Assembly (NCBI RefSeq): GCF_030503435.1
Contig: NZ_JAUKPO010000003.1
Span: 372,001-436,000, forward strand
DNA length: 64,000 bases
Reading direction: 5' to 3'
From: Rhodocytophaga aerolata
Lineage (GTDB): Bacteria > Bacteroidota > Bacteroidia > Cytophagales > 172606-1
The notes under the pieces were generated by a model that saw nothing but the letters and a program-made list of their open reading frames with translations, did no database searches and was not told where the DNA came from. Below, piece after piece: positions 20,290 through 38,981 of this stretch. A program made the position numbers and the translations under genes. How positions within the stretch are numbered: the first letter of the stretch is position 1; each line of letters opens with the position of its first letter.

Positions 20290-20308
20290 TCCGTTACACT
20301 CTTAATAA
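20290..20308. repeat. Left attachment-site core (19-bp direct repeat)
   Basis: TCCGTTACACTCTTAATAA occurs here and again, identical and in the same orientation, at 38,083-38,101. Flanking bases differ on both sides. Both copies lie in frame within the coding end of the ABC ATPase gene (native fragment here, repaired gene there), as expected for an integrase core site. Confidence 0.9.
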
Positions 20309-20352
20309 GAGTATAACCTATTGCTGATTATCAATAAGTTAAGAGCTAATGA

Positions 20353-20360
20353 GTAACAAA
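20353..20360. promoter_or_regulatory. Candidate integrase arm site, left end
   Basis: GTAACAAA occurs 45 bases inside the left core. The same octamer occurs four times (two in each orientation) inside the right end, upstream of the integrase gene. An AGTATAACC word next to the left core (20,310-20,318) also recurs at 38,020-38,028. Confidence 0.4.
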
Positions 20361-20374
20361 ATAGAAACAGAAAG

Positions 20375-20794
20375 CTAAGAAATTGCTACTTTTTGCTGCT
20401 TAAAACCCTCCTCAACAGCCTTAGCTAAACAGCTTAGATCTCCTACAATATCTTCTATTTCCACACTTCTGCCTTCTTGAATAGTTGCATACTTCCATAG
20501 ATAAGTCTGAGCCTTGAGTAAAGATTCAAGTATTTGTCCGGGGTAATAGGAAAAGAGTACTTCTTTAATCGCAGTAATGTCAAACTTATTGCCGGTACTG
20601 GCATTCTGAAAACTGTTTTTGTCTGGCATCATTTCCTGCAATAGCCATAGTACCCAGTAATTATCATGGTTTGCATCTTCCCGTTGATCAGAAAGCAGTC
20701 TGAGTAAATTCTTTTGAAGGTTTACTATTTCCTCTTCAGGAGAGCCTGTTTTGATAGAGATTACAAGGCGGTCATTTTCTAATACTACTGACAT
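20375..20794 (-). CDS. Element hypothetical protein, 139 aa
   Basis: Unrecognised. Soluble and mostly helical, rich in Leu/Glu/Lys/Gln with an aromatic patch (DNYWVLWLLQEMMPDK), and no Cys motif. It is the last gene of a tight four-gene minus-strand operon (21,700 to 20,375) driven from the divergent regulatory region at 21.7 kb. It ends about 65 bases from the left att core. In satellites and prophages this position often holds accessory or anti-phage genes, but nothing in the sequence proves that here. Confidence 0.7.
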   Translation of the reverse strand: MSVVLENDRLVISIKTGSPEEEIVNLQKNLLRLLSDQREDANHDNYWVLWLLQEMMPDKNSFQNASTGNKFDITAIKEVLFSYYPGQILESLLKAQTYLWKYATIQEGRSVEIEDIVGDLSCLAKAVEEGFKQQKVAIS

Positions 20795-20797
20795 GTT

Positions 20798-21034
20798 TTA
20801 AAAAGTTAAGGGTGAATAAATAGTTATATTTTGATCTTCAAATACACAGCGGATAGGTGTATTACACGTTAGGCAGGCGAGCCTAGCAAATGCCCTTGTA
20901 TCTATAGCCTGCATTTGAAAGGGCTTAAATTCAGTATCTGCTTTGCATTTCTGGCAGAAGTCAATGTAGGTCTCATCCAGAGAAAAACTTTCAAGTCTTG
21001 CCTTTAATAATGGAAGTTGTGTTTGTGTGGACAT
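20798..21034 (-). CDS. Small protein with two CxxC pairs, 78 aa
   Basis: Unrecognised. Two Cys pairs, FCQKC (about residue 27-31) and ACLTC (about 53-57), are spaced like a zinc ribbon, with a beta-strand-like tail (PIRCVFEDQNITIYS). It could be a small nucleic-acid- or protein-binding zinc module. It lies three bases from the next gene, within the four-gene operon. Confidence 0.7.
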   Translation of the reverse strand: MSTQTQLPLLKARLESFSLDETYIDFCQKCKADTEFKPFQMQAIDTRAFARLACLTCNTPIRCVFEDQNITIYSPLTF

Positions 21035-21039
21035 AATAG

Positions 21040-21324
21040 CTAAAATGAAATTTGTTTTAATAGGTTATCAATTTTCTCCTGGTATTTCATCATAAAGTGC
21101 TGCTCATCTTTAGCAAACTCGCCTTTCTTAGTCTTAGCAAAGTATAGCTTCTGATAGTGCCGGAACTGCCTGGTATATTCTACGAGTTGCTTGAACTTAT
21201 CATCATCGGATGAGAATACATCCGTAACAGGAGCTGCCACCGGCTCTGGCTGCTCATCAATGCTTATCAGCTTCTGGCCGTATAGATAAGCCTCAAAGCT
21301 TTGACGTGGTTTAATATGTCGCAT
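21040..21324 (-). CDS. Element hypothetical protein, 94 aa
   Basis: Unrecognised small basic protein. The N-terminus (MRHIKPRQSFEAYLYGQKL) is followed by an acidic linker and a helical, Lys/Gln/Tyr-rich C-terminal half (YTRQFRHYQKLYFAKTKKGE). The start overlaps the end of the upstream gene by 14 bases, which supports co-translation. Confidence 0.7.
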   Translation of the reverse strand: MRHIKPRQSFEAYLYGQKLISIDEQPEPVAAPVTDVFSSDDDKFKQLVEYTRQFRHYQKLYFAKTKKGEFAKDEQHFMMKYQEKIDNLLKQISF

Positions 21325-21700
21325 GGCTAACAGGAATAAAGCTCATGGCATAACTCATCACGTAATCATATCTGGCGTTCATCCAGTGATACATTTCCAA
21401 GTAGTAGGAGGCATCTTGCTTGCTGTAGTCTTTCACCAGGTCATAGGCCAGTAATAGCTCATGAGTCGTTTCCAGCATTTCGTCGGTTTGTTCTTTGTAG
21501 TGATCCAGCTTAGCCTGGGCCGGGCGTACGAATCTAGCTTGATTCGTTTGTTGCGGAGGTAGTTGAAAGGTGTACATGCTAAAAGAAAAAACCTTGGAGC
21601 TCTCAGGTTTTGCACGGGGCCAATACTCCCCACCTTTGAGCTTCAAGGCTTCTAGAATGTCTTTTGATATATTGGGAACGGGTGCAAATCCGTATAACAA
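21311..21700 (-). CDS. Element hypothetical protein, 129 aa, uncertain start
   Basis: Unrecognised. The frame opens at a TTG (21,700); no in-frame ATG exists before the internal Met at 21,577 (MYTFQLPPQQ). The stretch between them (ISKDILEALKLKGGEYWPRA) looks protein-like, so a non-ATG start is plausible. However, the TTG is also the end of a TATATTTG promoter-like box, which would argue for a downstream start. The C-terminal half is helical and Tyr/Met-rich. It is the first gene of the divergent minus-strand operon. Confidence 0.6.
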   Translation of the reverse strand: MLYGFAPVPNISKDILEALKLKGGEYWPRAKPESSKVFSFSMYTFQLPPQQTNQARFVRPAQAKLDHYKEQTDEMLETTHELLLAYDLVKDYSKQDASYYLEMYHWMNARYDYVMSYAMSFIPVSHATY

Positions 21701-21797: not shown

Positions 21798-21813
21798 AAT
21801 AAACCGTAATTGA

Positions 21814-22082: not shown

Positions 22083-22859
22083 TCAATGTATTTTTCTTCT
22101 TATCATGTAAGAATTAAGGTGATTCATTTTTATAAAGAAATTTGTTTTTAGCGTTACATTTTTAATGTAATCATTGTTCACGATAACTGTGCCTATTTCG
22201 CTATATTCATTATTTAGGAAATTTAGTAGTTCGGAAAACTCAGAATGATTAAATTTATCAAATAATAAATAGTCAAAACTAGCTTCTAAATATTCTTTTT
22301 CTTCATGATAAAATTGTAAAGTTTCTATCTTGTTTAAAATTTGCGAGGCTAAAAACAACAGAGAGTTGAATTCACTTCCATAATACTCTTGTCTTAAAAT
22401 TCTTTCAAACTGCTCTCTTTCTTTTTTATGTAAATCCTCTGCTGTTATACTGCCATATTTTACTAGCCCCATATCTTGGTTATAGCTTCCAATATTAGAA
22501 TACATACTTGCAATGATATTTGATTTAATAGCTTCAAAATCTGGAGCACTATTATGTTTTTTAAAATCTTCTAATAATCTTAGTGTTAATTCAAAGTTGC
22601 GTTCCTTATCAATTCTATCAAATTGGCTTTTATTAGCATTAAATTGCTGCTTAAATGATAAATAGACTAAAAGCAATCCAACAAAATTTAATATTGGGCC
22701 TGTAATACCGCCAATAGTATCCCCAATTGCGCCAGTATTATTAAATTGTAAAGCGGTATGGAAAGCAGGACGTGTAAAAAAGAATGGAGCTAGTAATGCG
22801 AAAAGCAGACCTGTAGCAATAATTAGAATAGGAATATTCTTTTCTGAAAATAATTTCAT
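22083..22859 (-). CDS. Two-helix membrane protein, possible phage abortive-infection (putAbiC-like) family
   Basis: 258 residues. Transmembrane helices at about 9-30 (IPILIIATGLLFALLAPFFF) and about 53-72 are separated by a loop containing NNTGAIGDTIGGITGPILNF. After the second helix comes KQQFNANKSQFDRID and a long helical cytoplasmic domain. A short GDxxGG loop before a second helix, then a QxxxN-rich coil, is the layout I recall for the putative phage abortive-infection family (putAbiC). That assignment is from memory. The gene is more AT-rich than its neighbours and sits in the accessory zone of the element, consistent with recently acquired defence cargo. Confidence 0.6.
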   Translation of the reverse strand: MKLFSEKNIPILIIATGLLFALLAPFFFTRPAFHTALQFNNTGAIGDTIGGITGPILNFVGLLLVYLSFKQQFNANKSQFDRIDKERNFELTLRLLEDFKKHNSAPDFEAIKSNIIASMYSNIGSYNQDMGLVKYGSITAEDLHKKEREQFERILRQEYYGSEFNSLLFLASQILNKIETLQFYHEEKEYLEASFDYLLFDKFNHSEFSELLNFLNNEYSEIGTVIVNNDYIKNVTLKTNFFIKMNHLNSYMIRRKIH

Positions 22860-22988
22860 AATTAGCTTTAAGGAGGTTAATCGGTAAACTTTAAGGAATA
22901 AAAGAAATATTTAAACTAAAATAAAGAAATTGATTCTTATAAAATTACTTTGTTTGTTACTTCTTCTTTCATTCCAGAATCTATCTGC

Positions 22989-23141
22989 ATGGAATGGCCG
23001 CTAGATCCCTCAGTATATCATCCAATTTTGCAGGTACTTATATTTGCCATTGCTATCACTGGCGGTCTATGGCTACACTCGCTCATTTATCCAACCAGGA
23101 AACAATGGCTAAAGAAGCAGAGAAAGAAATACGACTATTAG
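22989..23141 (+). CDS. Small membrane protein, 50 aa
   Basis: ATG at 22,989 gives 50 residues: MEWPLDPSVYHPILQVL leading into one hydrophobic helix (ILQVLIFAIAITGGLWLHSL), then a highly basic tail (RKQWLKKQRKKYDY), a sound inside-positive topology. An in-frame ATG at 22,950 would add 13 residues of less regular sequence. No family recognised. It lies between the possible Abi gene and the plus-strand cargo operon. Confidence 0.45.
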   Translation: MEWPLDPSVYHPILQVLIFAIAITGGLWLHSLIYPTRKQWLKKQRKKYDY

Positions 23142-23385
23142 GAATTATTCCCTCTGGCTTATATATTCAGACTTTATAAATAAGCCAATGACCAGCTCCC
23201 TGCTTTTCTCTAATCAATACCTAATCGATAACATTGCGGATGCCTGCCAGAATTTTGTGGAAACCGAATATTTGCGGATGAATTAGGCTAAAAATACCCA
23301 TTTCCAGGTATTGACAAGCTTTATTATTTTCTGTAAATCACCCTCAATACATTACAATTATTTTATAGTACTCTTTTATAAAAAT

Positions 23386-23400
23386 AAAGCTTCAAGCTTT
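23386..23400. promoter_or_regulatory. Palindrome upstream of the cargo operon
   Basis: Perfect 7-1-7 palindrome AAAGCTT-C-AAGCTTT ending 25 bases before the ATG of the first cargo gene. It is a candidate operator or 5' hairpin. The rest of the 23,142-23,425 gap shows no gene. Confidence 0.35.
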
Positions 23401-23425
23401 TAACCTTCTACTACTCTACTTCTAA

Positions 23426-23977
23426 ATGAAAATTTCACAAATTGAATCACTTAATATTGATTTATTAAGTAAAGGACTTCCTACGCTTACACCAAATATT
23501 GGATGCTATTTAGTTGAAGCAGCAAAATATCTGCTGATGAGCAGGAACCATAACAGTGGGGTTACATTTTCGATCAATGGCTTATGCAATAAAGATTATT
23601 CTTTGGAGTGGGAAACGCCACTTGACCAAAGAGCAAAATTTGGTTGGAGGGATCATCAAGAGGCTACTGAGTATGGAGCTACAGGTATAGCAATTTTGTT
23701 AGCTGTACGTCTAACTGAATATACAACAGTAGAAAGATCTTTTAAAGGGACAGGTTTTGATTATTATCTTCTTTCTAGAACTGACAATGATGTTTTACCT
23801 TTTCAGCATGCAGCCAGGCTTGAGATTTCTGGTATAGAACAGGGCAATAAAAAAACGGTGCTAAGAAGAGTTGAAGCAAAAAAGAAACAAACCGATCGCT
23901 CTGACAATACTAATCTTGATGCGTTTATTTCAGTAGTAGAGTTTAATAACCCAATGGGGCATTTTTGTAAAAAATGA
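23426..23977 (+). CDS. Cargo operon gene A: unrecognised 183-aa protein
   Basis: Soluble protein with no signal or membrane helix. The N-terminal half is helical (NIGCYLVEAAKYLLMSRNHN). The centre has WETPLDQRAKFGWRDHQEATEYGATGIA, then GTGFDYYLLSR and a strand ARLEISGIEQG followed by a basic RRVEAKKKQTDR. The D...RLEIS...K pattern is reminiscent of nuclease-like folds but does not match a motif I can defend. It overlaps the next gene by four bases (ATGA), so the two work together. It is on the strand opposite to most of the element, with its own upstream region, which marks it as an independent cargo module. Confidence 0.75.
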   Translation: MKISQIESLNIDLLSKGLPTLTPNIGCYLVEAAKYLLMSRNHNSGVTFSINGLCNKDYSLEWETPLDQRAKFGWRDHQEATEYGATGIAILLAVRLTEYTTVERSFKGTGFDYYLLSRTDNDVLPFQHAARLEISGIEQGNKKTVLRRVEAKKKQTDRSDNTNLDAFISVVEFNNPMGHFCKK

Positions 23978-25086
23978 GCGAAATTATTGTACAACATAAC
24001 AAAGCCATGGACTTGGCTGAGATTGCTTTTCTTGAAAAAAGAAACGGCAATTATGAAAAGGCTATAGACCTTTTTGCTGAAGCCTTTATTTACGAAAGAG
24101 ATGCAGCTTTGAGGACACAGATGTTATCAGGAAGCGAACCTTCACGGTCTATTCTGTTTAAAAGTGCAGCCTCGCTAGCTATGAAATCAGAAAATTTAAG
24201 AGAAGCGGAAAGAATGGTTGCTTTAGGCTTGGCAGGGGACCCCCCAGAACAAATAGCTGAGGAACTAAGAGATTTATTTGAGCAAATAAATTTTGAAAGG
24301 CACTTAGCATTAAAGGGTATTACACTTGATGAGAATGATATTCAATTATCCCTTTCAGGGAAAGATGTGGGTTATGGTGTGGCCAGGGTAGAGGAGTTTA
24401 CCAAAAGACTCTTAATTTTTGAAAAATTGGTATATCGAACAGCTGAGAGAATCAAAGGAACACCTTTTAGAGAAACCGGTGAGGTAAAGGATATTATAAA
24501 AAATGATTTTGAGCAATACATATCTGTGCCAAGAGCAGCCAGTTTTGCTGTAACTGTTAAACTTGGTAAACCAACTAAACAATTGTCGATAGTTGATTTA
24601 ACTAATGATGTTGTAAAAGAAATTTTCAGTGGAATATCTTTGATTAATTCGAATGAACATGAGTTGTTGAGTGAGAAAATTGCAAATGAAGATTATTACA
24701 AAAACTTTGTGGCTCTTACTAGACAGATGGCGCCAGATGGAGAAAGAGTTAAGTTGGTTGGACTAACAACTATGCACCAAGGTAATATTCAAAAAGTAGC
24801 ATTTACAAAGAAAAACTTTGATATCTCCCTTACTCCTTCAAATGATATAAAGAAAATAGAATTAATGAATCAGCCTGTTGAGATCACTGGCCGCCTTGGA
24901 TTTGCTTCTGTTGATAACAGTGAAATTAGATTAATAACTGATAAAAATGATAGATACAAAGTTATTGTTCCAAAAGGCTTAATGGCTGATGTGGTAAAAC
25001 CTTATTGGGAAGAAGTAGTTACTGTTGTTGGGTTTAAGCGATCTGCTAAAAAAATAGAAATGCTTGACATAAAGAAACCGGATTGA
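23974..25086 (+). CDS. Cargo operon gene B: TPR-like protein with beta-rich tail, 370 aa
   Basis: Residues about 8-100 are paired helices of tetratricopeptide type (NKAMDLAEIAFLEKRNGNYE; AIDLFAEAFIYERDAALRTQ; LREAERMVALGLAGDPPEQI). The middle is helical and charged. The last about 75 residues are strand-rich (VEITGRLGFASV; VIVPKGLMADVVKPYWEEVV), suggesting a small barrel such as an OB-like fold. Helical repeats plus a barrel suggest an adaptor or sensor rather than an enzyme. It is translationally coupled to gene A. Unrecognised; a two-gene anti-phage system is one hypothesis. Confidence 0.75.
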   Translation: MSEIIVQHNKAMDLAEIAFLEKRNGNYEKAIDLFAEAFIYERDAALRTQMLSGSEPSRSILFKSAASLAMKSENLREAERMVALGLAGDPPEQIAEELRDLFEQINFERHLALKGITLDENDIQLSLSGKDVGYGVARVEEFTKRLLIFEKLVYRTAERIKGTPFRETGEVKDIIKNDFEQYISVPRAASFAVTVKLGKPTKQLSIVDLTNDVVKEIFSGISLINSNEHELLSEKIANEDYYKNFVALTRQMAPDGERVKLVGLTTMHQGNIQKVAFTKKNFDISLTPSNDIKKIELMNQPVEITGRLGFASVDNSEIRLITDKNDRYKVIVPKGLMADVVKPYWEEVVTVVGFKRSAKKIEMLDIKKPD

Positions 25087-25216: not shown

Positions 25217-25390
25217 TTAAAAACTTGTAATACCATCAGGCAGAAACCAGAAGCCAGTCCGCTCCTCTACAGGTACATCTGGTAAAGGACCAAAGTAAAA
25301 GCTGTAATCCTTCTCTTTCTTTCTCTGCTTTATCTTCTCTACGTTGCCGGATTTAATGGCAGATCGCAGGTTGCTTTTGGGGTTTCTCAT
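25217..25390 (-). CDS. Microgene A of a tandem trio, 57 aa
   Basis: ATG 25,390 to TAA 25,217. The N-terminus MRNPKSNLRSAIKSGNVEKI resembles those of the next two upstream genes (shared pattern LRxAIKxGDxxxIK). The remainder (DYSFYFGPLPDVPVEERTGF) is unrelated to theirs. It is separated by two bases from the upstream member. Function unknown. The N-terminal similarity across the trio is the best evidence that the gene is real. Confidence 0.65.
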   Translation of the reverse strand: MRNPKSNLRSAIKSGNVEKIKQRKKEKDYSFYFGPLPDVPVEERTGFWFLPDGITSF

Positions 25391-25392
25391 AG

Positions 25393-25602
25393 CTAATCTC
25401 TGTAGTTAACGGGTAATAATAATAATACTTGGGTGGTTTCAGGCTTTGCAATCTCTACTAACCTACTAGGATTATACAGCCTCTGGTAATACTTGCCTTG
25501 CTTGTCATACTCAACTACCAGGTCGCCTGTGGTAGCCCGTTTAATTTTGGAAAGGTCGCCGGATCGGACGGCCTGACGAAGTTTACTGTATTGTTTTTTC
25601 AT
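25393..25602 (-). CDS. Microgene B of a tandem trio, 69 aa
   Basis: N-terminus MKKQYSKLRQAVRSGDLSKI shares the (K/L)LRxAxxxGDxxxIK pattern with microgenes A and C; the tail (VVEYDKQGKYYQRLYNPSRL) differs. No known family. Part of the minus-strand run downstream of terS. Confidence 0.7.
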   Translation of the reverse strand: MKKQYSKLRQAVRSGDLSKIKRATTGDLVVEYDKQGKYYQRLYNPSRLVEIAKPETTQVLLLLPVNYRD

Positions 25603-25629
25603 GTTTCCAGGTGAGGTTTAGTGAGGTTG

Positions 25630-25884
25630 CTAAAGCTGTATTTCATCTTCAGAGGAGGCAAGTTTCATTAACGGAGAGGCTACCAGAATAACCGGCAGAT
25701 GGCTTCCATCTTTGGGATTTTCATATAGGGTATCGTCTGCATTGTATAAATTCTCACTGCCTGCCTTCCGATGCAAGAACACAATCTTAGGTGCCTGCTC
25801 AGTAGGGTTAGTTAAGTTTTGAACGGCCTGCCTGTCGCCTTGCTTGATAGCCTGTAGTAATTTGCGGTTAGTTGCTTTTTTCAT
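25630..25884 (-). CDS. Microgene C of a tandem trio, 84 aa
   Basis: N-terminus MKKATNRKLLQAIKQGDRQA matches the trio pattern. The tail (KIVFLHRKAGSENLYNADDT, and SHLPVILVASPLMKLASSED) is again its own. The start overlaps the 3' end of the terS gene by 17 bases, placing the trio in the same operon as terS. Confidence 0.7.
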   Translation of the reverse strand: MKKATNRKLLQAIKQGDRQAVQNLTNPTEQAPKIVFLHRKAGSENLYNADDTLYENPKDGSHLPVILVASPLMKLASSEDEIQL

Positions 25885-26400: not shown

Positions 26401-28914
26401 TTATTTAAGTTCTGCTGATCCTTTTGCATATTTTACACCTTCCTGCACTTTCTCAATATCAGATACTCTCACATAGATAGGCTGGGCTTTTACACCCGTC
26501 TGTACATGTTGAGATATATCCTTGTTAGAATCAATCCTTTGTTGCACTGGTGTAGATAATCCCTTTACCACTTCCACACCTCCATATTCAAAGAAAGGTC
26601 TGCCACCACGCCTTACGTTCTCTGCTGAGAGCATGGATAATCTTCTCGTATCGTTGCGTTTAACAATAGCAATGGTTTCTCCTGCCTGAGCCTCGAATGT
26701 CTGGCCACTATCGGGAGAGTAGAAGGTTGTGCCACCAGCCGAATGATCTTTACCACCTACCAGGAAGCCTCCCCCATATTCGAACTTTGGAGGTTCGGGT
26801 GTAGGCTCTGATAATAGCTTCTTAGCCTGAGCCACATTAGCAAGGATTCTGGCAAGGCCAGCTGTAAACTGTAATACACCTGCTGCACCACCTGTGAGTA
26901 AGTTTAAAGGATTTCCTTCAGATGCCTTTATCAGCTCTGAGATGGCAATAGCTGTGTTTGTAGCTATTTGTGCTACGGCAATACCCTTTCCAAAATCAGT
27001 TGCTTCAGCAGACTTACCGGTAAGTAGTTCTATGAGCGATCCAGCAGAGTCGGTTATAGCAGAAAGCGTTTGCAGTTTAGCCTGCTCTATAGCAGTCTCC
27101 CTATCTGCCTGGTTTTGCTTAATTTCTACCCGCTTATCTGCTATTTGCTGCTCAATATCAACGGTATACTCGCCATACTCCTGGGCTAAGGCCAGCTGGC
27201 GTTCTAAGCGTTCTAGCTCAATTTTATCCTGCTCTGCCTGAAACTCCTCATTTTCAATACCACCTCCTAACAGTTTGGTGGTAAGCTCTAATGTCTTTTT
27301 ATCAGATGTCTCATTGGTTGTACGTGTACGGATTTCCTTATCCGCATCAGCAGCGGCTTTGGCAAAATCCAGTGCCTCTTGTGCTTGCTGCCGGGATAGT
27401 TCGAGTAGCTCCAGGGCTTCTTTCTTTCGATTCTCTAGAAATTCTTTGCGAAGCTTTTCTATTTCTTTGATCGTGGTCTGCTCAATGAGTACTCGCTTTT
27501 CCTGGGTGGTGCCTTCATTTAGTAAGGTCAGGTCTCGTTCCGCTTTTAGCAGCTGCTCGCGAAGTTCCAGTTCTTTTTCTGATCCTGCTGCTACGGCTAG
27601 TAGTTCGGTTTCAATGGTGGCTTTCCGGTCTTCCAGCTTTGCCTGCAGGAATGCTTTGTTTTTCTCTTCTGCCTCCCTATTCAGGTTAAAGTTTTCAGTG
27701 ATGTACTCATTCTGCCGGCCTAAGGAATCTTCCAGCAAATCAGCAAGCTCCAGCCTGGCCTCTTCCCGTTCACGTAGTTTCTCATTACTGATGTTGGCCT
27801 CACCTAACAGCTTTATTTCTTTATCGAGGTTATCAAATTTGCGCTGGAATAAATCTGATTCAATTTTAAGCCGGTCCTGTTCCAATTTCCTGGCCGCTGT
27901 GTTAGCGGCTATGCGTTTCTCAATGGTGTTATACTCATCATCGCGAATATTTTTTAATCTCTCCTCTTCTGCCAGCATTTGCTTAGTTCGGGATAGCGAT
28001 AAGATTTCTTCCCTCTCTAATTGCTTACGCTCTAAGTTGAGCTTATTCAACGCATCTGCCTGGGAATAGATACCTTTAGCAAAATCACTAGCAGCGGAGG
28101 CCCCTCTGGAAAACTTACCGGTAATATCTGATACACCAGTACTTGCCTGCAGTAATCCGTTGGCCAGGGCTTTCAGATCCCGATCACCTATGGCTTTGAC
28201 TATCACACCAAAGGCTTTAAACCGGTTTTCTATGTTTTCTTTAATCAGGTTGCCAAAGTCAATAAGCAGTTGCTTTGGATCAGATAAGGCTTTAACAAAG
28301 TTCTCCCCAAACTTTACAATCTCATTTGATATAGCTTTGGTAATGGTGGAGAGTATGCCAAAGGTACGGGTGAAGAACTCCATAAACTGGGTGTTCTCCT
28401 GCAATAGGGTAACCAGGCTAATTAAGCTGGTGAGAAACAGGCCAATGGGGTTTGTTTTAAAGGCAGTGCCTACCCCGTCAATGGTTTTGCCAAAGTTGGT
28501 ATTCTCTTTAATGGCATCCGATATAGCGCCCCGGTAATCGCCCACAGAACGGGAAAATACACCTATGGCCTCTTCCTGGTCTTTAATCGTATCGCTAAGA
28601 TCTTTAATCCGCTTAATCTGCTCTTTTGTCGGATTGGCCAGATTATCGTATTCTTTGCGTAGCTTCTTTAACTCTTCCTTATTTGCAGCCAGGGAGCCTT
28701 GATTAAGCTTTTGTACAGTAGTAAGCCTTGCCACCTCATCTTTGAGCCTTGATACACGGTTAGCCGCCTGCTGAAAAGCTTCGCTACCAGCATCCGATTT
28801 CTCAAATTCTTTTTGAGCTTCCTTTAGCTTAGCTTTTACCTCCTCTAAATTCTTGAGCAATCCGCCTTTATCAATGGCAAGGTCAAATAAGATTTTCTTT
28901 CCAGTGGTTTCCAT
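26401..28914 (-). CDS. Tail tape-measure-like protein
   Basis: 837 residues. N-terminal coiled coil (LLKNLEEVKAKLKEAQKEFE) with NPTKEQIKRIKDLSDTIKDQ and VFSRSVGDYRGAISDAIKEN, a run I associate with tape-measure proteins of Bacteroidota phages. There is a hydrophobic segment at about 145-170 (PIGLFLTSLISLVTLLQENT), a very long Glu/Leu/Lys coil (about 290-590), a second hydrophobic helix region near 655-690, and the C-terminal GGFLVGGKDHSAGGTTFYSP with GQTFEAQAGETIAIVKRND, a common end motif of such proteins. Tape measures set siphovirus tail length. No other tail or head gene is nearby. Antisense Ser-rich frames at 26.9-28.5 kb are shadows of the coil. Confidence 0.75.
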   Translation of the reverse strand: METTGKKILFDLAIDKGGLLKNLEEVKAKLKEAQKEFEKSDAGSEAFQQAANRVSRLKDEVARLTTVQKLNQGSLAANKEELKKLRKEYDNLANPTKEQIKRIKDLSDTIKDQEEAIGVFSRSVGDYRGAISDAIKENTNFGKTIDGVGTAFKTNPIGLFLTSLISLVTLLQENTQFMEFFTRTFGILSTITKAISNEIVKFGENFVKALSDPKQLLIDFGNLIKENIENRFKAFGVIVKAIGDRDLKALANGLLQASTGVSDITGKFSRGASAASDFAKGIYSQADALNKLNLERKQLEREEILSLSRTKQMLAEEERLKNIRDDEYNTIEKRIAANTAARKLEQDRLKIESDLFQRKFDNLDKEIKLLGEANISNEKLREREEARLELADLLEDSLGRQNEYITENFNLNREAEEKNKAFLQAKLEDRKATIETELLAVAAGSEKELELREQLLKAERDLTLLNEGTTQEKRVLIEQTTIKEIEKLRKEFLENRKKEALELLELSRQQAQEALDFAKAAADADKEIRTRTTNETSDKKTLELTTKLLGGGIENEEFQAEQDKIELERLERQLALAQEYGEYTVDIEQQIADKRVEIKQNQADRETAIEQAKLQTLSAITDSAGSLIELLTGKSAEATDFGKGIAVAQIATNTAIAISELIKASEGNPLNLLTGGAAGVLQFTAGLARILANVAQAKKLLSEPTPEPPKFEYGGGFLVGGKDHSAGGTTFYSPDSGQTFEAQAGETIAIVKRNDTRRLSMLSAENVRRGGRPFFEYGGVEVVKGLSTPVQQRIDSNKDISQHVQTGVKAQPIYVRVSDIEKVQEGVKYAKGSAELK

Positions 28915-30039: not shown

Positions 30040-30302
30040 ATGTTGATTGCTTTTTGTTGATTCACTAATTTTATTTTGTCTTTGATAATATTGAGTTGAA
30101 TGCGCTCTTGGGCTATTTCTCTTGGCGCTTTGCCGTGAATGGTTTGCAGCAAGAATTCTATGTTTTGATAGAGGCTACTTACTTCAGGTATAAAAGAACT
30201 ATCGGTTATCATTTCAACTACTTCTTTCGAGTCCAGACCTCTTTTCTCGATTAGTTCCAAATCATCGGCTAAAAGCCTTAGGCCGCTTATTAACTGTTTC
30301 AT
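29916..30302 (-). CDS. Element hypothetical protein, 128 aa, long overlap with next gene
   Basis: Unrecognised helical protein (MKQLISGLRLLADDLELIEK; SLYQNIEFLLQTIHGKAPRE). The last about 41 residues (NIWQLQHNKLPKAQHKQVLP and onward) lie over the first codons of the 219-aa gene in another frame and look less protein-like. The natural end may have been earlier, before a frameshift or stop-codon loss. Confidence 0.6.
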   Translation of the reverse strand: MKQLISGLRLLADDLELIEKRGLDSKEVVEMITDSSFIPEVSSLYQNIEFLLQTIHGKAPREIAQERIQLNIIKDKIKLVNQQKAINIWQLQHNKLPKAQHKQVLPSTTKTFFTSSNWLQTLVKNFRS

Positions 30303-30317: not shown

Positions 30318-30947
30318 TTACTGGGCTTCGTATTGCAGGCAGAAGCGTTTGTTTTGAATGTAGTATCTGGAATGGTCGCCTTCATAGCTGCCTCCAAAGT
30401 GGAAAGAGAGCAGCCCCCAGGGTTGGTTGACATGTAGCCTGTGAAACTCATTGGCCAGCTTTTCCAGCTCCATGGCTAGTTTCAATAGTTCGGCCTGCTT
30501 ACCGGTAGCATAGGTTTTCACCTGTTCTTTGTAGGTACCAATATATTCTGTATTCAGGCGTATACCTTTCTTATCTATGGTGTAAAAAGCCCAGTCTACG
30601 CCTTTGCTTCGTACGGCTTCAATAGCTCTTTCCAGTGCCTCAACCGTTGCAGGCTTCTCGGCTATTTCATAGAGGAACTTTACTTTATTAATGGGCATAC
30701 CGTTGATATCAGCGGGTACGGCTTTCAGGCGTTCGGTTTCAATGAAGGATTCAGGAGCCCGTAGTAAGTCGGCCAGGGTTTCGGCATCACTAATTTTAGT
30801 TTCAAACTTGTTCGCCTGGTAGCTGGTAAGTACTTCTGATAGCAGAGGTAAAAGAGTTTCCGCGTACTTTACCGTATTCTCAAACTGCTCTGTATTTTCA
30901 CTGATTAGTATTCTTTCGGTTGGTTCTTTTTGTGCTTGTGGGCTCAT
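30318..30947 (-). CDS. Element hypothetical protein, 209 aa
   Basis: Unrecognised soluble protein. Helical N-terminal half (ENTVKYAETLLPLLSEVLTS), a GVDWAFYTIDKKGIRLNTEY segment at about 115-135, and a C-terminal helix followed by an aromatic end (WGLLSFHFGGSYEGDHSRYY). It is part of the tight minus-strand gene run between the replication region and the tape-measure-like gene, with one base to its upstream neighbour. Confidence 0.7.
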   Translation of the reverse strand: MSPQAQKEPTERILISENTEQFENTVKYAETLLPLLSEVLTSYQANKFETKISDAETLADLLRAPESFIETERLKAVPADINGMPINKVKFLYEIAEKPATVEALERAIEAVRSKGVDWAFYTIDKKGIRLNTEYIGTYKEQVKTYATGKQAELLKLAMELEKLANEFHRLHVNQPWGLLSFHFGGSYEGDHSRYYIQNKRFCLQYEAQ

Positions 30948-32340: not shown

Positions 32341-32698
32341 TTTTGCCCTGATTACAACTTTTCGCCCTGTTTTTGCCCTACTTTTGCCCTGTGTACTTTG
32401 AAGGTAAATAGGCCTATTTTGCATAATTAAGGGCTTTTTTTTCTTCTTTTTCTGCTTTAGGGCAAAAGGGCAAAAAAACTGCTATATATATGCTGGGGTA
32501 TATACTATTATATAAGTACCTATTTTTTATATAGTCTTTTCTCTTTATTTAGACTCCCCCGTATTTCAGTCGGAAAACTTTTGCCCTTTTGCCCTAATCG
32601 TTGAATACTTGAAAATTAAGGGGATTTTGCAGGGCAAAACAGTAATTTTTTTTGCCCTTTTGGCTCTTACTTTTGCCCTGTTTCAGAACTTTTGCCCT
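32341..32698. repeat. TTTTGCCCT iteron array, candidate replication origin
   Basis: TTTTGCCCT or its complement AGGGCAAAA occurs at 32,341, 32,371, 32,382, 32,459, 32,467, 32,579, 32,587, 32,631, 32,650, 32,671 and 32,690, plus degenerate copies near 32,359 (TTTTCGCCCT) and 32,658. Two tandem pairs form a perfect 17-bp inverted repeat (32,459-32,475 and 32,579-32,595) that brackets about 100 bases of strongly AT-rich sequence (TATATATGCTGGGGTATATA and following), like a DNA-unwinding element. The last two copies lie inside the 3' coding end of the replication gene. Iterons, an AT-rich core and an adjacent primase/helicase gene are the usual parts of a satellite or plasmid origin. Confidence 0.75.
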
Positions 32699-35099
32699 GT
32701 TTTGCTTTGAATAATGCATACCGGATACCATTGCTTTTACTTTCGTCATAATCCCGATTAATAAAGCCTGCATAAGCCTTAAGCCATTTTGTAAAAGTGT
32801 TTGGCTTTAGTATGGCTTCGGTATATTCAGGAAATTCAGTTCTGAAAGCTGAAAGCAAATCAGATTTATTGTATCCGTCTTGATTAATTTTTGCATTCGG
32901 ATTGGTATAATCAAAGATGTGCTCTTTGGCAAAATCCATAAAGTCTTTGTTGTTGCCTGTTGTTTGAATCAGCTTTCGTTCATCTAAATGAATAACGCTA
33001 GGCTTTATCAAACCATTGGCTAAATAGGATCTGCAGCAATTGAATAAGAAATAATAAAACAGGTGCCAGTCTTTATGGTTCCAATCATCAAAAAACCAGG
33101 CATCAAATTCATCTTTAGGGCTGAAAGTATCTGAATAGTAATTAGCAAATTCAAATTCAATTACCCTGGCCTTAGCACTACCTCCGCTGATCTCTATAGC
33201 CCTATTTGAACTGATCAGGATTGTAGGCCGGATAATAAAGCTTGCCTGGTTCTTTTTTTCTACGGTTACACCTTCCGTAACAGCTGTAAACATCAGCTCA
33301 AAGTCAAACTTCTTTTTACCTCTGCCAGCATCGTTAATATGCATTATCTGCGTATCAATGGTAGCATTCTGGTATTTGAACCGGTCATCTGGATTGAAGT
33401 TTTTACCGTCAATCTCACAATAAGGCCGGAGCTCGCCCATGGCTCTGCCTATGATCGTTTTACCGGTTCTGCCTTCCGGATTATCTGCAATATCCGTATC
33501 GGTAAAGACAATAGCCTTACGCTCTCTTTTGGCACTATGAAGCAAATAGCCAAGGATAGATACAAATGATTCCAGCCGGTCTTTATCGAGTTGCCATTGC
33601 TCATTTTCTTTGATGGAACAAATGTTCTGCACAAATTGAACAAACATAAAATCTTTCAAAGATCCCTTTGCTGGCTGCACATAGTCCCGTTTTATAATTT
33701 GCGTATCCCAGATATACCCTGAAAGCTCACTATATGGCCTAAGTATCGTATTATCTTTTGTTACCTCTATAAAGCCATTCTGGAAGTAGAAGAACATCTG
33801 ATGAGGTGTATCAGTATGAAAAGTAGGAGAGATTGCTTTCAAGGATTCCAGCTTCTCTCTGCTAAAAAGACTGGAGAATAGAAGTAAAGTATTAATGATA
33901 TCATGCCTGGCTACTTCTGATAATACTTTCAGGCTTTCTACATATCCACAAGTAAAATCTTTAATATCCTTGGTTGCAACAATGGATACAACATTTTCTT
34001 TTACCCGTACATAGTAAAAATCATTCACATTCAACCGGTAAAGCATGTAGCCATTTTTGCCTAAGAACTCAAGAAAATTTTTAATATCAATGCGGTATAC
34101 TCCAGGCTCCGTTTCAAACCAGAATGAATCATAATTGCTTTTAGATACCTCTACTTTTTCGGTTTCCGGATTATAGGCATATAGCTTGCCTCGATAATTA
34201 AAATCATTTAAGCCTAATTTGCTTTCATGGATTTTGTAAAAGTTATTAAAATCATCCAGCCCAAACCAGCTATTTAGCTTGCTATTGCTATTATCCTTTA
34301 AGCTTAGAATAGTGAAATAACTCTCTGCTTTAGATAGCGCCTTAGCATCTGTAATGATTTCCTGGCTTTCCTCTGGCAGTTGAATAAATAAATCATCCAA
34401 ACCCTTTGCTTTATTTTCAGGCTTGATATAGCCTACATAGGCATCTACATTTACACCTAGGCAAGATTCTTTCAGGTTCTTAGCAGCAGAGGCAAAACCA
34501 TTACTCCGATATGCTAAATCTTTTGTAATAAGGTCTTCTGGCTGCAAGGTTTCATCATGGGAGGTCATACATTTAGCATCTGCATCAAACAGAAGTACTA
34601 AGTTTTTTACCTTGCACCTTTTGATTATTTCAAGTATGTACGGGTGCAGCTCCTTAGATCCCTTTGGCCTGAATTGAAATATGCCTAGTGTAGCAATACA
34701 ATCTAATCCTTTAACTGATGCAACAAAGGCCTTTTTAGGTCCTTCTGTAATATAAAGGGTAGTAATTGTAACACCGGTTTTAATTTTAGTGATGATTTCA
34801 GGAGGGAGAAATGGCGTAGCTTCTGCCTTGTATGGATTGATGTATTTACCCTTACTATCAGGTATTTTTTTTCTCCTGACTATATACGGCCTAGGATTAT
34901 TTTTGCCATCATAATAAATAGCCTCTTTGCCGTCAGGATCTAGAAACCGGATAAGCATATCATCATGAGCATCGCTATAAATTATCTGACCTTCTACCTC
35001 ATTTCCTTTCCAATTGCTATAAATCACTGTATTCTGCTCATGGGTAATACCCATCTGGGCTAATACTTTTTGTGCAAAAGATATGGTATCTGTATTCAT
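32667..35099 (-). CDS. Replication protein: TOPRIM primase-like plus SF3-like helicase
   Basis: 810 residues. The N-terminal TOPRIM motifs are clear: E119 in LYITEGPKKAFVAS and D172-x-D174 in LVLLFDADAKC (the arrangement of DUF3854/TOPRIM domains in element-encoded primases). The C-terminal half is a helicase: Walker A at about 544-550 (NPEGRTGKTIIGRAM), a Walker B-like IMHINDAGRGKK, and RPTILISSNRAIE, which resembles motif C of superfamily 3/D5-type helicases. Such fusion proteins melt the element origin and start replication. Its 3' end carries iterons, and its start overlaps the upstream gene's stop by one base (TAATG). Confidence 0.85.
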   Translation of the reverse strand: MNTDTISFAQKVLAQMGITHEQNTVIYSNWKGNEVEGQIIYSDAHDDMLIRFLDPDGKEAIYYDGKNNPRPYIVRRKKIPDSKGKYINPYKAEATPFLPPEIITKIKTGVTITTLYITEGPKKAFVASVKGLDCIATLGIFQFRPKGSKELHPYILEIIKRCKVKNLVLLFDADAKCMTSHDETLQPEDLITKDLAYRSNGFASAAKNLKESCLGVNVDAYVGYIKPENKAKGLDDLFIQLPEESQEIITDAKALSKAESYFTILSLKDNSNSKLNSWFGLDDFNNFYKIHESKLGLNDFNYRGKLYAYNPETEKVEVSKSNYDSFWFETEPGVYRIDIKNFLEFLGKNGYMLYRLNVNDFYYVRVKENVVSIVATKDIKDFTCGYVESLKVLSEVARHDIINTLLLFSSLFSREKLESLKAISPTFHTDTPHQMFFYFQNGFIEVTKDNTILRPYSELSGYIWDTQIIKRDYVQPAKGSLKDFMFVQFVQNICSIKENEQWQLDKDRLESFVSILGYLLHSAKRERKAIVFTDTDIADNPEGRTGKTIIGRAMGELRPYCEIDGKNFNPDDRFKYQNATIDTQIMHINDAGRGKKKFDFELMFTAVTEGVTVEKKNQASFIIRPTILISSNRAIEISGGSAKARVIEFEFANYYSDTFSPKDEFDAWFFDDWNHKDWHLFYYFLFNCCRSYLANGLIKPSVIHLDERKLIQTTGNNKDFMDFAKEHIFDYTNPNAKINQDGYNKSDLLSAFRTEFPEYTEAILKPNTFTKWLKAYAGFINRDYDESKSNGIRYALFKAKQGKSSETGQK

Positions 35100-35610: not shown

Positions 35611-35615
35611 CTTGG

Positions 35616-35927
35616 TTAGCGGCCTCTTCTTTTACCTAATGTTACTAGGGTTGCAGCTTCCTGCTCAATCTGCTCAGTAGTCTTTACCGGATTACGCAGG
35701 CACCAGGCGGCCAGCTCCTCTACATCGAAGTACACCATCTTGCCTTCAGGTTTATAATGCGGTACCTGGCAAGCAGCGGTTTTTTTGTACATGTCGCTTC
35801 TGGAGCGCCCGGTATAGATACAAGCCTCTTCAAAGGTTAAAACCTTTTTTTTGCTTAACATGCCAGCTGCCAGCATGGCTTTAATATTGTTAAGCTCTTC
35901 TAATAAAATGTCGTTTGTTTCTGCCAT
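35616..35927 (-). CDS. Excisionase-like helix-turn-helix protein, 103 aa
   Basis: After an N-terminal helix, LTFEEACIYTGRSRSDMYKK and VPHYKPEGKMVYFDVEELAA form the small winged HTH of the Bacteroidota excisionase/HTH_17 type. The pattern is a recognition helix, then a PEGKxVYF wing and a helix with WC. It is the first gene of the replication operon, about 70 bases after the RteC-like gene. Such proteins act as directionality factors for the integrase or switch on replication genes. It is the better excisionase candidate of the two HTH proteins because of its proximity to the integrase. Confidence 0.78.
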   Translation of the reverse strand: MAETNDILLEELNNIKAMLAAGMLSKKKVLTFEEACIYTGRSRSDMYKKTAACQVPHYKPEGKMVYFDVEELAAWCLRNPVKTTEQIEQEAATLVTLGKRRGR

Positions 35928-35994: not shown

Positions 35995-36831
35995 TTAAAA
36001 GTTAGTACTAACTTTTTTTATTTCTTTTGTTAGACTTGGAATTACTTTGAGATTATCAAATTCATAGGTAGTTTTAGAACAAACAACACTCAATTGTTTG
36101 GCATTAAAAGGTTTTCCTCTTTTATTATAGAAGTGTGAACAGATTAATTCATTAACATGGTCATCTTGTATTAGGCCTTCATCTTCTAAGAACTTAAATA
36201 ATGATTTAAGTTGAGGTTCTGTGCCTAGCCATTTTATCTGCTCTAACTTTTCTTGGTTATCAATAAAATGCCTCTCGAATTCTTTATAAGTGACATTAAA
36301 GCACTTAGGAGTTAAAGAAGAATGAATTAGTTTTATAATCGTCTTTTGCTGTTCAATCTTATGTATATTAAGTGCTATTAACTTCGGTTCAGGTGAAGTT
36401 GATAGCCTACTAATTTTAATTTTTTCCTTCTCTTGAATCCATTCGCTTACAATTACATCAATTGCACCAGCCTGTGCTATTCTAAATTCTCTCATTCCTA
36501 GTATATCATCCTCAGGATTGCGAAACCAATCTAAACTAGCTTTAACTAAGATTTTTGTATGCTTAAGAAATGCTTTTTTATCTCCTGAGTATTTATGATA
36601 GTGATAATCTAACATTTCTTCAATGGCAACAATATCGATATGGTGCCAAAAGAGTTTATGCCTAAACAAGTCATCAACAAGATGTCCTATACTCTTATAT
36701 GTAGGTCTTGTAGGATTAATAGGTACAATTTTTCCTTCATCATTTCTATGAAAACTACCAGCTTTTAATTGATGCTTACTTTCAGGTGTTTCTTCTGATA
36801 AATAGAATGAATAAAACGCATTATTCTCCAT
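35995..36831 (-). CDS. Hypothetical protein with RteC-like C-terminal region, 278 aa
   Basis: Its start overlaps the end of the integrase gene by 11 bases. The N-terminal half is helical and His/Tyr-rich (FRHKLFWHHIDIVAIEEMLD). The C-terminal part has IKWLGTEPQLKSLFKFLEDE, then a helix and NAKQLSVVCSKT. This resembles the W-T/L-G-x3-xL-xxL-xxL pattern I recall from RteC-type regulators that control excision of Bacteroides conjugative elements. The assignment is tentative. The gene is more AT-rich than the packaging genes. A role in excision control would fit its place between integrase and HTH. Confidence 0.6.
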   Translation of the reverse strand: MENNAFYSFYLSEETPESKHQLKAGSFHRNDEGKIVPINPTRPTYKSIGHLVDDLFRHKLFWHHIDIVAIEEMLDYHYHKYSGDKKAFLKHTKILVKASLDWFRNPEDDILGMREFRIAQAGAIDVIVSEWIQEKEKIKISRLSTSPEPKLIALNIHKIEQQKTIIKLIHSSLTPKCFNVTYKEFERHFIDNQEKLEQIKWLGTEPQLKSLFKFLEDEGLIQDDHVNELICSHFYNKRGKPFNAKQLSVVCSKTTYEFDNLKVIPSLTKEIKKVSTNF

Positions 36832-37927
36832 CCTTCACCTCCCCAAAATTGATTGTAGGCAGCATATTCACCGCATCCACTTTTTTCTTATCAATGATCT
36901 TTGCATAGATCTGAGTAGTTTCCACTTTCTTATGTCCTAGCAGCTTGGATACTGTATAGATATCCGCTCCACTGGTAAGCAGTAAGGTGGCATGGGTATG
37001 TCTGGCTGAATGGAAGGTAATAGGCTTCTGTATGCCTGCTCTTAGCAGCCAGTACTTTAACTTAATACCTATCCAGTTACGGCTTTCTAAGGCAAATACT
37101 TTACTTTCCGGCTCTTTAGTCTCTCCAATGATTTCTCTGGCCTGCTTAGATATAGGCAGCACTTCAGCACCATCTGTTTTCTTCTGGCTGTACTGAATGT
37201 AATAGCCTAACTCTTTAGAATGGTTTATATCTCGCCACTTTAAAAGCTCGATATCAGAAAGCCGTAAACCAGTCAAAGCAGAAAATAAAAAAGCTTTCTT
37301 TAAATCCGGTAAATCACATTCAGCTTGGGCCAGCCGGTGCAGCTCCTCCGCAGTGAGGTAATGCCGGTGGTTGCCTTTCTTCTTTAGCCTTTCAATGCCT
37401 ATTGCCGGATTATCCTGAATGATTTTATCTTTCACTGCTTTATTTAAGATCGTAACCATCTTTTCAAAGTAAGCTAGGGCCGTATTATGGGATAGGGTAG
37501 AGGCTAAGTGCTCTTTATAGCCTTGTACCCAATCTGGGGTAATCTCTGCAAAGGTTACCGGCTTATCTTCTGCATAAAGCTTTATATGCTTGATGGTAGA
37601 AAGCCAGGTATTAACTGTATTTTGCTTTTTATGCTTTGATGCAATGGATTCGACAAAAGGAATAAGCAAGGTCTGAGAACGGAAAGAGGCAATGTTTCCA
37701 TGTTTGTTACTCATCAGCTCCTCATAGCGTTTGGAGCGCAGACTTTCAGCCAGGTTGATAGTTTCCTTATTGGATGATTTATCAAATGGAGTAGGACCTT
37801 TGGTAAGGTATAATTTCAAAAATTCATACCAGCGTTCTCCATTATGGTAGATGTCCAGATAAAGGCTTTTCTTCCCTTTGGTTAGTGTCTTTTTTCGAAG
37901 GGTAACGGATGTTTTTTGTGTCTTCAT
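36821..37927 (-). CDS. int: Tyrosine recombinase (integrase)
   Basis: 368 residues. The N-terminal arm-binding-like domain (VTLRKKTLTKGKKSLYLDIY) is typical of Bacteroidota integrases, followed by a SAM-like core-binding domain (about 85-185). The catalytic residues are all visible: R222 in ALTGLRLSDIELLKW, Lys at about 250 in QKKTDGAEVLP, H306 and R309 in FHSARHTHATLL, H332 in LLGHKK, and nucleophile Y341 in TTQIYAKI. The enzyme should be active. It lies about 155 bases from the right att core, its natural target, and reads away from it. Confidence 0.93.
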   Translation of the reverse strand: MKTQKTSVTLRKKTLTKGKKSLYLDIYHNGERWYEFLKLYLTKGPTPFDKSSNKETINLAESLRSKRYEELMSNKHGNIASFRSQTLLIPFVESIASKHKKQNTVNTWLSTIKHIKLYAEDKPVTFAEITPDWVQGYKEHLASTLSHNTALAYFEKMVTILNKAVKDKIIQDNPAIGIERLKKKGNHRHYLTAEELHRLAQAECDLPDLKKAFLFSALTGLRLSDIELLKWRDINHSKELGYYIQYSQKKTDGAEVLPISKQAREIIGETKEPESKVFALESRNWIGIKLKYWLLRAGIQKPITFHSARHTHATLLLTSGADIYTVSKLLGHKKVETTQIYAKIIDKKKVDAVNMLPTINFGEVKDGE

Positions 37928-37991
37928 TTTTTGTTACTCGTTTACCAGTTTTTGTTACCGGAGGGTATGGAGTAACAAAGTAGTAACAAAA
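37927..37991. promoter_or_regulatory. Candidate integrase arm-type sites / integrase promoter region
   Basis: Four copies of TTTGTTAC: two forward (ending 37,937 and 37,958) and two inverted (GTAACAAA at 37,972 and 37,983), arranged as an inverted pair of pairs immediately upstream of the integrase start. One further copy lies at the left end. The spacings of 21 and 11 bases are about two and one helical turns. Confidence 0.5.
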
Positions 37992-38042
37992 CATGAGAAA
38001 GTAAAGGAAAACAACAGAAAGTATAACCGCCTAAAAACCTAT

Positions 38043-38981
38043 TTAAACAGCGATTTCTTTGCTGATGTTTTCCGTTGTTTCATCCGTTACACTCTTAATA
38101 AAAATATCATTCATGCTGGGGATGCTTTCTATAAATGAATGAATCTGAACCTGGTTAATCAGGAAAGCTAGCAAGTGGTTGGGTGTGGAGTTGGCAGGTA
38201 TCTTAATAGCAGCTCTAAAATGATTATCTGCAAGTTCTTTCAAGCTCAAAATCTCAAATTCAGGAGAAAGAGAATTTAGTTTTCCTTCTCCTTCAATAAT
38301 AAAGGTATTTGTCCGGTACCGGTTTTTAATTTCTTTAGTTGAGCCATCAAGTATTTTCTTCGATTTATTAATTAAAGCAATATAATCGCATAACTCCTCA
38401 ACAGATTCCATACGGTGAGTAGAAAAGATAATGGTGCTACCTTGTTCTTTTAGCTGGAGAATCTCATCTTTTATTAAATTAGCGTTAATAGGATCAAATC
38501 CGGAAAAAGGCTCGTCCAGAATAATTAATGTAGGGTTGTGAAGAACAGTAGCCACAAACTGCACTTTTTGCTGCATCCCCTTGGACAGATCTTCTATGTT
38601 TTTGCTCCACCAGGTTTGTATTTCAAATTTTTTGAACCATACTTTAAGTTTATCCATAGCTTCGGCTTTAGATAATCCTTTAAGTTGCGTTAAATATAAC
38701 AATTGCTCTCCTACTTTCATTTTTTTGTATAACCCACGTTCTTCGGGCAAATAGCCTATTTGAGCAATATGTTTGGATGAAAGGGGCTCTCCGTTGAAAA
38801 AGATACGTCCGCTGTCAGGAGCGGTAATTTGAGTAATGATGCGGATGAGAGAAGTTTTACCAGCACCATTAGGCCCCAATAAACCGAATATACTACCTCT
38901 CGGAATACTAATACTTACATCTGCAAGTGCGGTATGATTTGAATATCGCTTAGTAATATGCTGAGCCTCGAGTATATTCAC
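38043..38981 (-). CDS. ABC transporter ATP-binding protein with element-supplied C-terminus
   Basis: 312 residues. Walker [15 protein letters not shown] (about 33-46), signature LSKGMQQKVQFVA (about 133-145), Walker B TLIILDEPFSGFDP, and the H-loop STHRME. The C-terminal about 85 residues are a DUF4162-like accessory domain found in NatA/CcmA-type exporters. No permease gene is adjacent. The last 13 codons and the stop (38,043-38,082) belong to the integrated element: upstream of the att core the gene is chromosomal, beyond it the tail TDETTENISKEIAV replaces the native TDEHTEISNVISV still found at 20.25 kb. Confidence 0.9.
   Translation of the reverse strand: MNILEAQHITKRYSNHTALADVSISIPRGSIFGLLGPNGAGKTSLIRIITQITAPDSGRIFFNGEPLSSKHIAQIGYLPEERGLYKKMKVGEQLLYLTQLKGLSKAEAMDKLKVWFKKFEIQTWWSKNIEDLSKGMQQKVQFVATVLHNPTLIILDEPFSGFDPINANLIKDEILQLKEQGSTIIFSTHRMESVEELCDYIALINKSKKILDGSTKEIKNRYRTNTFIIEGEGKLNSLSPEFEILSLKELADNHFRAAIKIPANSTPNHLLAFLINQVQIHSFIESIPSMNDIFIKSVTDETTENISKEIAV
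38083..38101. repeat. Right attachment-site core (19-bp direct repeat)
   Basis: Second copy of TCCGTTACACTCTTAATAA, inside the ABC ATPase coding sequence (codons for FIKSVTD on the minus strand), 155 bases from the integrase start. Confidence 0.9.

Follow-up and report, generated by a model that had tools for sequence, protein, structure and literature searches.

Anatomy of the island

The window analysed here is 64 kb (contig positions 372001-436000) of the 9.07-Mb genome of Rhodocytophaga aerolata (202 contigs) and contains a chromosomally integrated island of 17.8 kb, which is bounded by attachment (att) repeats with an integrase inside one end. An earlier sequence-only reading had credited this element with 'satellite, not prophage, gene content'. 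We called 27 genes in the island, excluding an overlapping pair of small open reading frames (ORFs) at 22950-23179; all 27 were scanned with Pfam and 20 of them also with PHROGs. The features on which the argument turns are listed below in window coordinates; TMP is the tape-measure protein, TerS and TerL are the small and large terminase subunits and HTH is helix–turn–helix.

20290..20308, no strand: integrase-distal attachment repeat, 19 bp, exact, TCCGTTACACTCTTAATAA
25868..26398, minus: TerS, 176 residues (Terminase_2 1.5e-30; phrog_51 4.7e-31; solved TerS 3zqp 6.5e-6)
26401..28914, minus: predicted tail TMP, 837 residues (matches to phage TMPs)
31172..31378, minus: g19, HTH_17 protein (7e-10)
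32341..32698, no strand: iteron region at the 3' end of the replication gene, with TTTTGCCCT present 11 times in both orientations
32667..35099, minus: replication protein, 810 residues (DUF3854 1.6e-5; phrog_28855 3e-56; C-terminal part VirE-like)
35616..35927, minus: g25, HTH_17-like (2.5e-5, under the Pfam cut-off)
36821..37927, minus: tyrosine integrase, 368 residues (Phage_integrase 3e-23; Phage_int_SAM_5 4e-20; Arm-DNA-bind_5 8e-14)
38083..38101, no strand: integrase-proximal attachment repeat, TCCGTTACACTCTTAATAA, within the 3' end of the ABC-transporter ATPase gene
38043..38981, minus: ABC-transporter ATPase, the target gene (ABC_tran match)

The gene for g19 opens an operon that ends with g09, with all of its genes on a single strand and gaps no larger than 97 nt. 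Within it the TMP gene comes first and is separated from the TerS gene by 2 nt. The motif TTTTGCCCT occurs only once more in the window outside the 11 copies, and 100 shuffles gave a mean of 1.36 and a maximum of 4; the region is a putative origin. The replication protein also matches a phage protein labelled 'vire al domain', and g25 may have an excisionase/AlpA-like role.

The island is inserted in the 3' end of the ABC ATPase gene, and each copy of the repeat reads in frame into a short C-terminus. The 19-bp repeat sits inside a longer imperfect match, and when the DNA next to the integrase was searched specifically it was the sole match of 14 bp or more. The window has no tRNA gene and gave no Rfam match reaching the gathering score. 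Of seven flanking genes scanned, six are recognisable as host genes (saccharopine dehydrogenase, metallo-hydrolase, ABC ATPase, DnaJ, GrpE and RecJ) and one is unclear. A phage seed set run against the window matched only the TMP, although this set is not exhaustive and misses even the TerS of the window. As far as the scanned flanks reach they hold no phage gene, which speaks against the island being one end of a larger prophage, one of the findings that the sequence-only reading had named as fatal to its case.

Much else in that reading was borne out. The exact direct repeats, the intact tyrosine integrase, the two excisionase-like HTH genes (the second with the reservation noted above), the replication protein beside iterons and the solitary TerS are all present, and a TerL profile search of the whole window gave none. 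Large terminase, portal, capsid, lysis and relaxase genes, which it had reported as lacking, gave no family match in the Pfam and PHROG scans, nor was a capsid-size gene recognised in the island. Its satellite interpretation is thus upheld in so far as TerL, portal and capsid were sought inside the element and not found, but its account of the gene content was incomplete: one phage structural gene, the TMP, had been overlooked. A full tape-measure gene in the TerS operon changes the likely mechanism.

The tape-measure protein

Tape-measure proteins set the length of phage tails. The largest gene of the island encodes an 837-residue protein that, judged by its sequence, we identify as such a protein. 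Using phmmer, it matched six of ten comparison TMPs taken from phages, prophages and the genome G190 (our own numbers are used for genomes, G, contigs, C, and loci, L), with E values for the set of ten of 6e-35 to 1e-18; the reversed sequence and 50 heptad-block shuffles gave zero matches. The first 400 residues alone match five of the ten TMPs and the last 258 alone match three, and since these two parts match independently a mere likeness between coiled coils does not explain the result. Alignment of a two-row TMP profile with five other TMPs in hhalign, run without a control, gave 100% at an E value of 1.5e-56. A tblastn search returned 150 phage records, all below 60% identity, and among the 20 listed four bear a tape-measure annotation. 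The protein is 29% identical to a TMP from Xanthocytophaga, which in turn matches phrog_20660, 'tail length tape measure protein', at 1.8e-30. In the PDB, two proteins matched the TMP profile weakly (E values of 0.016 and 0.02), one of them a coiled-coil construct.

Recurrence of TerS–TMP islands in the order

We surveyed 291 genomes of the order for Terminase_2 TerS and obtained 34 places in 26 genomes at an E value of 1e-5. The surroundings of all 34 were read for 7.5–10 kb on each side, or less at contig ends. TerS adjoins TerL at 19 places (L111, L114, L151, L152, L154, L157–L164 and L166–L171), is without TerL at 11, and four places were set aside (three short matches in G027 and a match in G059 that contains a stop). 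With phmmer, every one of the 19 TerLs was recovered when the remaining 18 served as queries; profiles built on these TerLs found no match in the 11 TerL-free loci or in two further islands, L180 and G024:C60, that are described below. A weak phrog_2 match in L153 was considered as a TerL and rejected; it is PhoH (2e-95). Five of the 11 TerL-free loci carry a TMP, two carry another virion gene and four have none recognised, as follows.

Window: TMP at 26401-28914, beside TerS
L109: TMP (TMP_3 1.5e-23)
L113, at a contig start: TMP (TMP_3 8e-11)
L115, at a contig end: TMP (phrog_9959 2e-168)
L155: TMP (phrog_5062 3.5e-27; TMP_3 under the cut-off)
L110: 730-residue virion protein of a family that lies close to TMPs in prophages
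L112: virion protein (phrog_15220, 'virion structural protein', 2e-80)
L150, L153, L156 and L165: no virion gene recognised

The last group may prove smaller, since the Pfam or PHROGs scans of the related islands covered a selection of their genes. Because the islands are in part related to one another, five in 11 should not be taken as five independent events; two of the five are contig-end cases. An integrase hit lies within the fetched stretch at eight of the 11 loci (all except L112, L115 and L153). L113 also carries a prohead-protease gene (4.6e-12), L109 has a chaperone-like gene (136 residues, matching phrog_183 at an E value of only 3e-4) and a TMP-adjacent tail protein is present in L110 and L111. 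In the island of the window itself no tail chaperone or baseplate hub was recognised by Pfam or PHROGs, several of the genes neighbouring the TMP being without a family.

Two further TMP islands lie beyond these 11. The island at G024:C60 (211848-226733; 14.9 kb, with tentative ends from 15-bp repeats) carries an integrase, an HTH protein, a PriCT_2/BT4734-like primase, a small gene and the TMP. The other, at G040:C16 (L180), has an integrase, an HTH protein, a relative of the DUF6371 protein of L109, a TMP (phrog_1533 2.7e-15) and a TerS of another family (phrog_83, 6e-7). Looking for the same type of element in related genomes, as the sequence-only reading had proposed, yielded related islands in other genomes.

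Three loci of the survey deserve mention for their own sake. L111 (G024:C1:96000-115900) combines TerS and TerL with an integrase, a VirE-type replication gene and a single tail gene, and has no portal or capsid seed match; it is a further combination of these modules. L150 (G236:C4) is a TerS island of ∼7.0 kb with 20-bp repeats and L156 (G105:C34) is one of ∼7.6 kb with 46-bp repeats that look tRNA-like by eye; both are possible minimal satellites. Att repeats were also searched for in L109, L111, L155 and L165 and were not found.

Cassette exchange and selection

The island TMPs form two unlinked groups in BLASTP at 1e-3: the window with G024:C60, and L109, L113, L115, L155 and L180, the latter a deep group that is loosely held together. 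A third lineage, represented by L115, was considered and dropped, as L115 carries the TMP_3 domain of L109 and L113. The two groups may be distant kin, the TMPs of G024:C60 and L109 both matching phrog_4704.

Around these genes the islands exchange cassettes. L155 (in G040) and, in another species, L111 (in G024) share a replication backbone with 92.5% DNA identity over 4.2 kb and diverge at the end of a 284-residue gene, after which L155 continues with TerS and a TMP and L111 with TerS, TerL and the 730-residue gene. L180 (G040) and L109 (G024) share 3.9 kb of backbone at 86.5%, with TMPs that are 36% alike over 305 residues, while L110 and L111, both in G024, have in common a 2.7-kb tail cassette at 94.8%. 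Ratios of nonsynonymous to synonymous substitution (dN/dS; Nei–Gojobori type, with one pair per gene and two for the 284-residue gene) are 0.06 for the 730-residue tail gene, 0.06–0.13 for the backbone genes, 0.16 for a 148-residue gene, 0.29 for TerS and 0.47 for a host gene. The tail gene and the backbone genes of the related islands are under purifying selection, and such constrained exchange is more in keeping with living satellites than with prophages in decay.

Other genes of the island

The remaining features of the island in the window are the following.

20375..21700, minus: four-gene cluster g04–g01 at the integrase-distal end, no confident family
22083..25086, both strands: accessory genes, a 258-residue membrane-type protein (minus; phrog_8999 8.5e-11) and a pair of 183 and 370 residues (plus)
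25217..25884, minus: g11, g10 and g09, three tandem paralogous small proteins immediately after TerS
28929..29282, minus: g14, 117 residues, coiled-coil-like (weak coiled-coil matches), immediately upstream of the TMP
30318..30947, minus: g17, 209 residues, with relatives in islands L110, L150 and L035 (iterative profile search)
35995..36831, minus: g26, 278 residues, no confident family, overlapping the integrase gene by 11 nt

The Xanthocytophaga island has a 102-residue protein in the place of g14. Also upstream of the TMP, g16 and g15 (29380-30302) overlap by 124 nt in different frames, and a frameshifted tail chaperone was considered for this pair. AlphaFold models of g17 (pLDDT 37) and g15 (pLDDT 38) were too poor for use. 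PADLOC, run on ten proteins including those of the accessory genes, gave no convincing defence match.

The g11/g10/g09 family is also found in three copies after TerS in G069:C42 (L113:2495-3260; iterative profile search), and these small paralogues, which follow TerS in two genera, are candidates for a packaging or head partner. That a single family of small proteins follows TerS in all of the islands was considered and discarded, as this holds only for the window and L113: the small genes of L109, L155, L110, L111 and L150 did not join the family of the window at an E value of 0.01. Between L109 and L155 the small post-TerS proteins are alike (4e-16).

Wider searches

The closest named relative that we met is Xanthocytophaga flavus YF14B1 (Rhodocytophagaceae, Cytophagales), and G024 is listed in the same family as the genome of the window. 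A TMP search of the 291 genomes matched 11, the own genome included. The contexts in G012, G097, G151, G197 and G021 resemble prophage tail clusters, the match in G122 is on a 4.2-kb contig, and the contexts in G229 and G235 were left out. In G190:C32 (L041) an integrase, a relative of the replication protein, a TerL (1e-124 to the TerL of phage P2559Y; Terminase_6C) and a TMP of 1189 residues occur together, with no head gene found by the seeds in the fetched stretch. Broken TMP pieces at G024:C33:352108-353179 (L091) are perhaps the remnants of another such island.

Across 395 genomes of the class, ten matched the TMP; the contexts of eight of the nine others were fetched and four were annotated (L116, L117, L119 and L121), of which L117 is prophage-like. 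TerS was found in seven of the 395 at an E value of 1e-10, with four new places, three of which were fetched (G360 was left out). In G594 and G421 TerS adjoins TerL, and in G619 neither TerL nor a TMP lies within the 9.6-kb contig. As the three fetched places include no TerL-free case with a TMP, Cytophagales, the one order surveyed closely, is to date the only group in which TerS–TMP islands have been seen; the class-wide scan yielded few TerS overall.

Viral contigs gave no relative when searched with the TMP alone, g17 or the replication protein. Searches of these contigs with the TMP pair and with TerS gave one locus (L095) and three loci, respectively, and on reading none was a sister island. 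A scan of genome contigs with two peptide patterns, poorly chosen as it turned out, returned only the Xanthocytophaga flavus locus. In the own genome phrog_2 has two matches, PhoH (2e-97) and a type I restriction R protein; this is weak proof that there is no helper prophage, since phrog_2 found only ten of the 19 TerLs of the survey.

Comparison with known satellites

Phage-inducible chromosomal islands (PICIs) and Staphylococcus aureus pathogenicity islands (SaPIs) share with this element their size, a terminal integrase adjoining an att site, HTH genes, a replication protein with iterons, a solitary TerS and the lack of a TerL or a structural set. An integrase and att repeats delimiting a chromosomal island of ∼10–18 kb, a replication protein near a putative origin and a TerS without TerL are all found here. 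The element differs from PICIs and SaPIs in carrying a TMP, in having no recognised capsid-size gene, in its DUF3854/phrog_28855-type replication protein and in its Bacteroidota host. In a PICI no structural genes besides remodellers are expected, and the tape-measure gene present here may or may not count as one of these. Capsid-forming PICIs (cf-PICIs) are likewise satellites with phage morphogenesis genes and make their own capsid, whereas no capsid, portal or TerL gene was matched in this island, a lack that also sets it apart from a prophage. A reference title cited in this literature has cf-PICIs stealing only tails.

The closest parallel to the tail gene is in the PICI-like elements (PLEs) of Vibrio cholerae, with which the island shares a satellite-borne TMP. 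According to Mathur et al. (Nature 2026, PMC12987554), Vibrio PLEs carry a TMP and a tail chaperone, and PLE11 also carries a baseplate hub; the TMP and hub of PLE11 are present in PLE11 virions, PLE11 tails are ∼10 nm shorter, and deletion of tmp in three PLEs lowers transduction by 96 to ∼99.9% (∼99.9% in PLE11). A legend there indicates that a sampling of cf-PICIs encodes putative tmp genes. Going by these descriptions, the chaperone-like gene and the TMP-adjacent tail gene of the related islands may be likened to TAC and BhuB of the PLEs. The differences from PLEs are that TerS adjoins the TMP here and that the host belongs to a different phylum. The island would combine a PICI-like layout with a PLE-like tail strategy in another phylum. 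No description of TMP-carrying phage satellites in Bacteroidota turned up in the open-licence literature, which was mostly judged from listings.

Proposed mechanism and alternatives

We consider it probable that the island is a PICI-like Bacteroidota satellite whose TerS redirects packaging and whose own TMP builds chimeric tails. On infection by a helper tailed phage the island would excise and replicate. Its TerS would recruit the TerL and portal of the helper to island DNA, so that helper heads are filled with this DNA, and its TMP would displace that of the helper, the tube, tip and fibres of the helper then assembling round the ruler of the island to give chimeric tails. The benefit might lie in evading TMP-targeting defences, in an assembly advantage for island particles or in a change to DNA entry. 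The related islands would work on the same principle, with cassettes that can be swapped for one another and that hold a TerL, a chaperone-like gene, a tail protein adjoining the TMP or a TMP from a different family.

Several observations weigh against this proposal. The helper, excision, the circle, packaging and the particle are all predictions from the genes, and the TMP of the window has no Pfam or PHROG match naming a tail protein at an E value of 0.1. The congener G004 has an intact ABC gene without an island, but the gene downstream of it differs, and an empty site is therefore not established. A TMP is not universal, four of the 11 TerL-free TerS loci being without a recognised virion gene, and the gene order varies (TMP then TerS in the window, L113 and L115; TerS then TMP in L109, L155 and L180). 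L113 and L115 may be cut prophages, given their contig-end positions, and a TMP in G073, ∼18 kb away from a TerL, shares 39% identity with that of L115 across 1427 positions. The Xanthocytophaga island at G024:C60, which has the closest TMP, has no Terminase_2 TerS, a few of its proteins having been scanned for other families. No pair of island TMPs is close enough for dN/dS.

The TMP might instead be an interference decoy, which would poison tail assembly of the helper and protect the population and would not be built into island particles. Defences of satellites and prophages are known to act on tail assembly, as in Tai and Rta (PMC11364771 and PMC12987554), and the TMP and TerS share one operon. 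We regard a decoy as unlikely: the island TMPs have been retained with both conserved ends, the chaperone-like gene or TMP-adjacent tail protein of the related islands fits a role in assembly better than one in poisoning, and in the single tested case a satellite TMP enters virions and is required for transfer (PMC12987554). A decaying prophage in which TerS and the TMP happened to survive the loss of TerL, of the head and portal genes and of most tail genes is less likely again. TMP and TerS are indeed phage genes, and both the broken TMP pieces in G024:C33 and the contig-end position of two of the five TMP–TerS cases would suit decay. However, every recognised gene of the island in the window has an intact ORF, and the near-identical replication backbones (at the DNA level) joined to different tail cassettes, the dN/dS values of 0.06–0.29 for genes of the related islands and the scanned flanks all argue against it. 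In the window the TMP precedes TerS, unlike in phages BT19 and P2559Y, so a single deletion does not explain this island (the argument does not apply to L109, L155 and L180).

The least likely of the three alternatives, to which we give very little weight, is an integrative mobilizable element moved by conjugation with TerS and the TMP as cargo. Similar integrases and replication proteins do occur in other kinds of Bacteroidota elements, and relatives of the replication protein are present in 27 of the 291 genomes, the own genome included, at loci that were mostly not closely read. However, there is no relaxase family among the 27 island genes in Pfam, TerS and the TMP lie in the core operon and their pairing recurs.

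Beyond the single island, we put at about even chances the broader proposal that Cytophagales harbour a separate modular class of satellites pairing TerS with a TMP, which would have evolved independently of the Vibrio PLEs and captured TMPs repeatedly from different phage lineages. Redirected packaging and capsid assembly by satellites have long been known; the first demonstration of tail manipulation by a satellite dates, by its authors' own account, from 2026 and Vibrio PLEs (PMC12987554). Now that solitary TMPs from more than one family turn up next to TerS in a distant phylum, on exchangeable cassettes, gene removal could test whether satellites in general remodel tails and why they do so. 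If such a separate TerS–TMP class is real, control of tail assembly would be a general second arm of satellite parasitism, swapped between islands like a cartridge.

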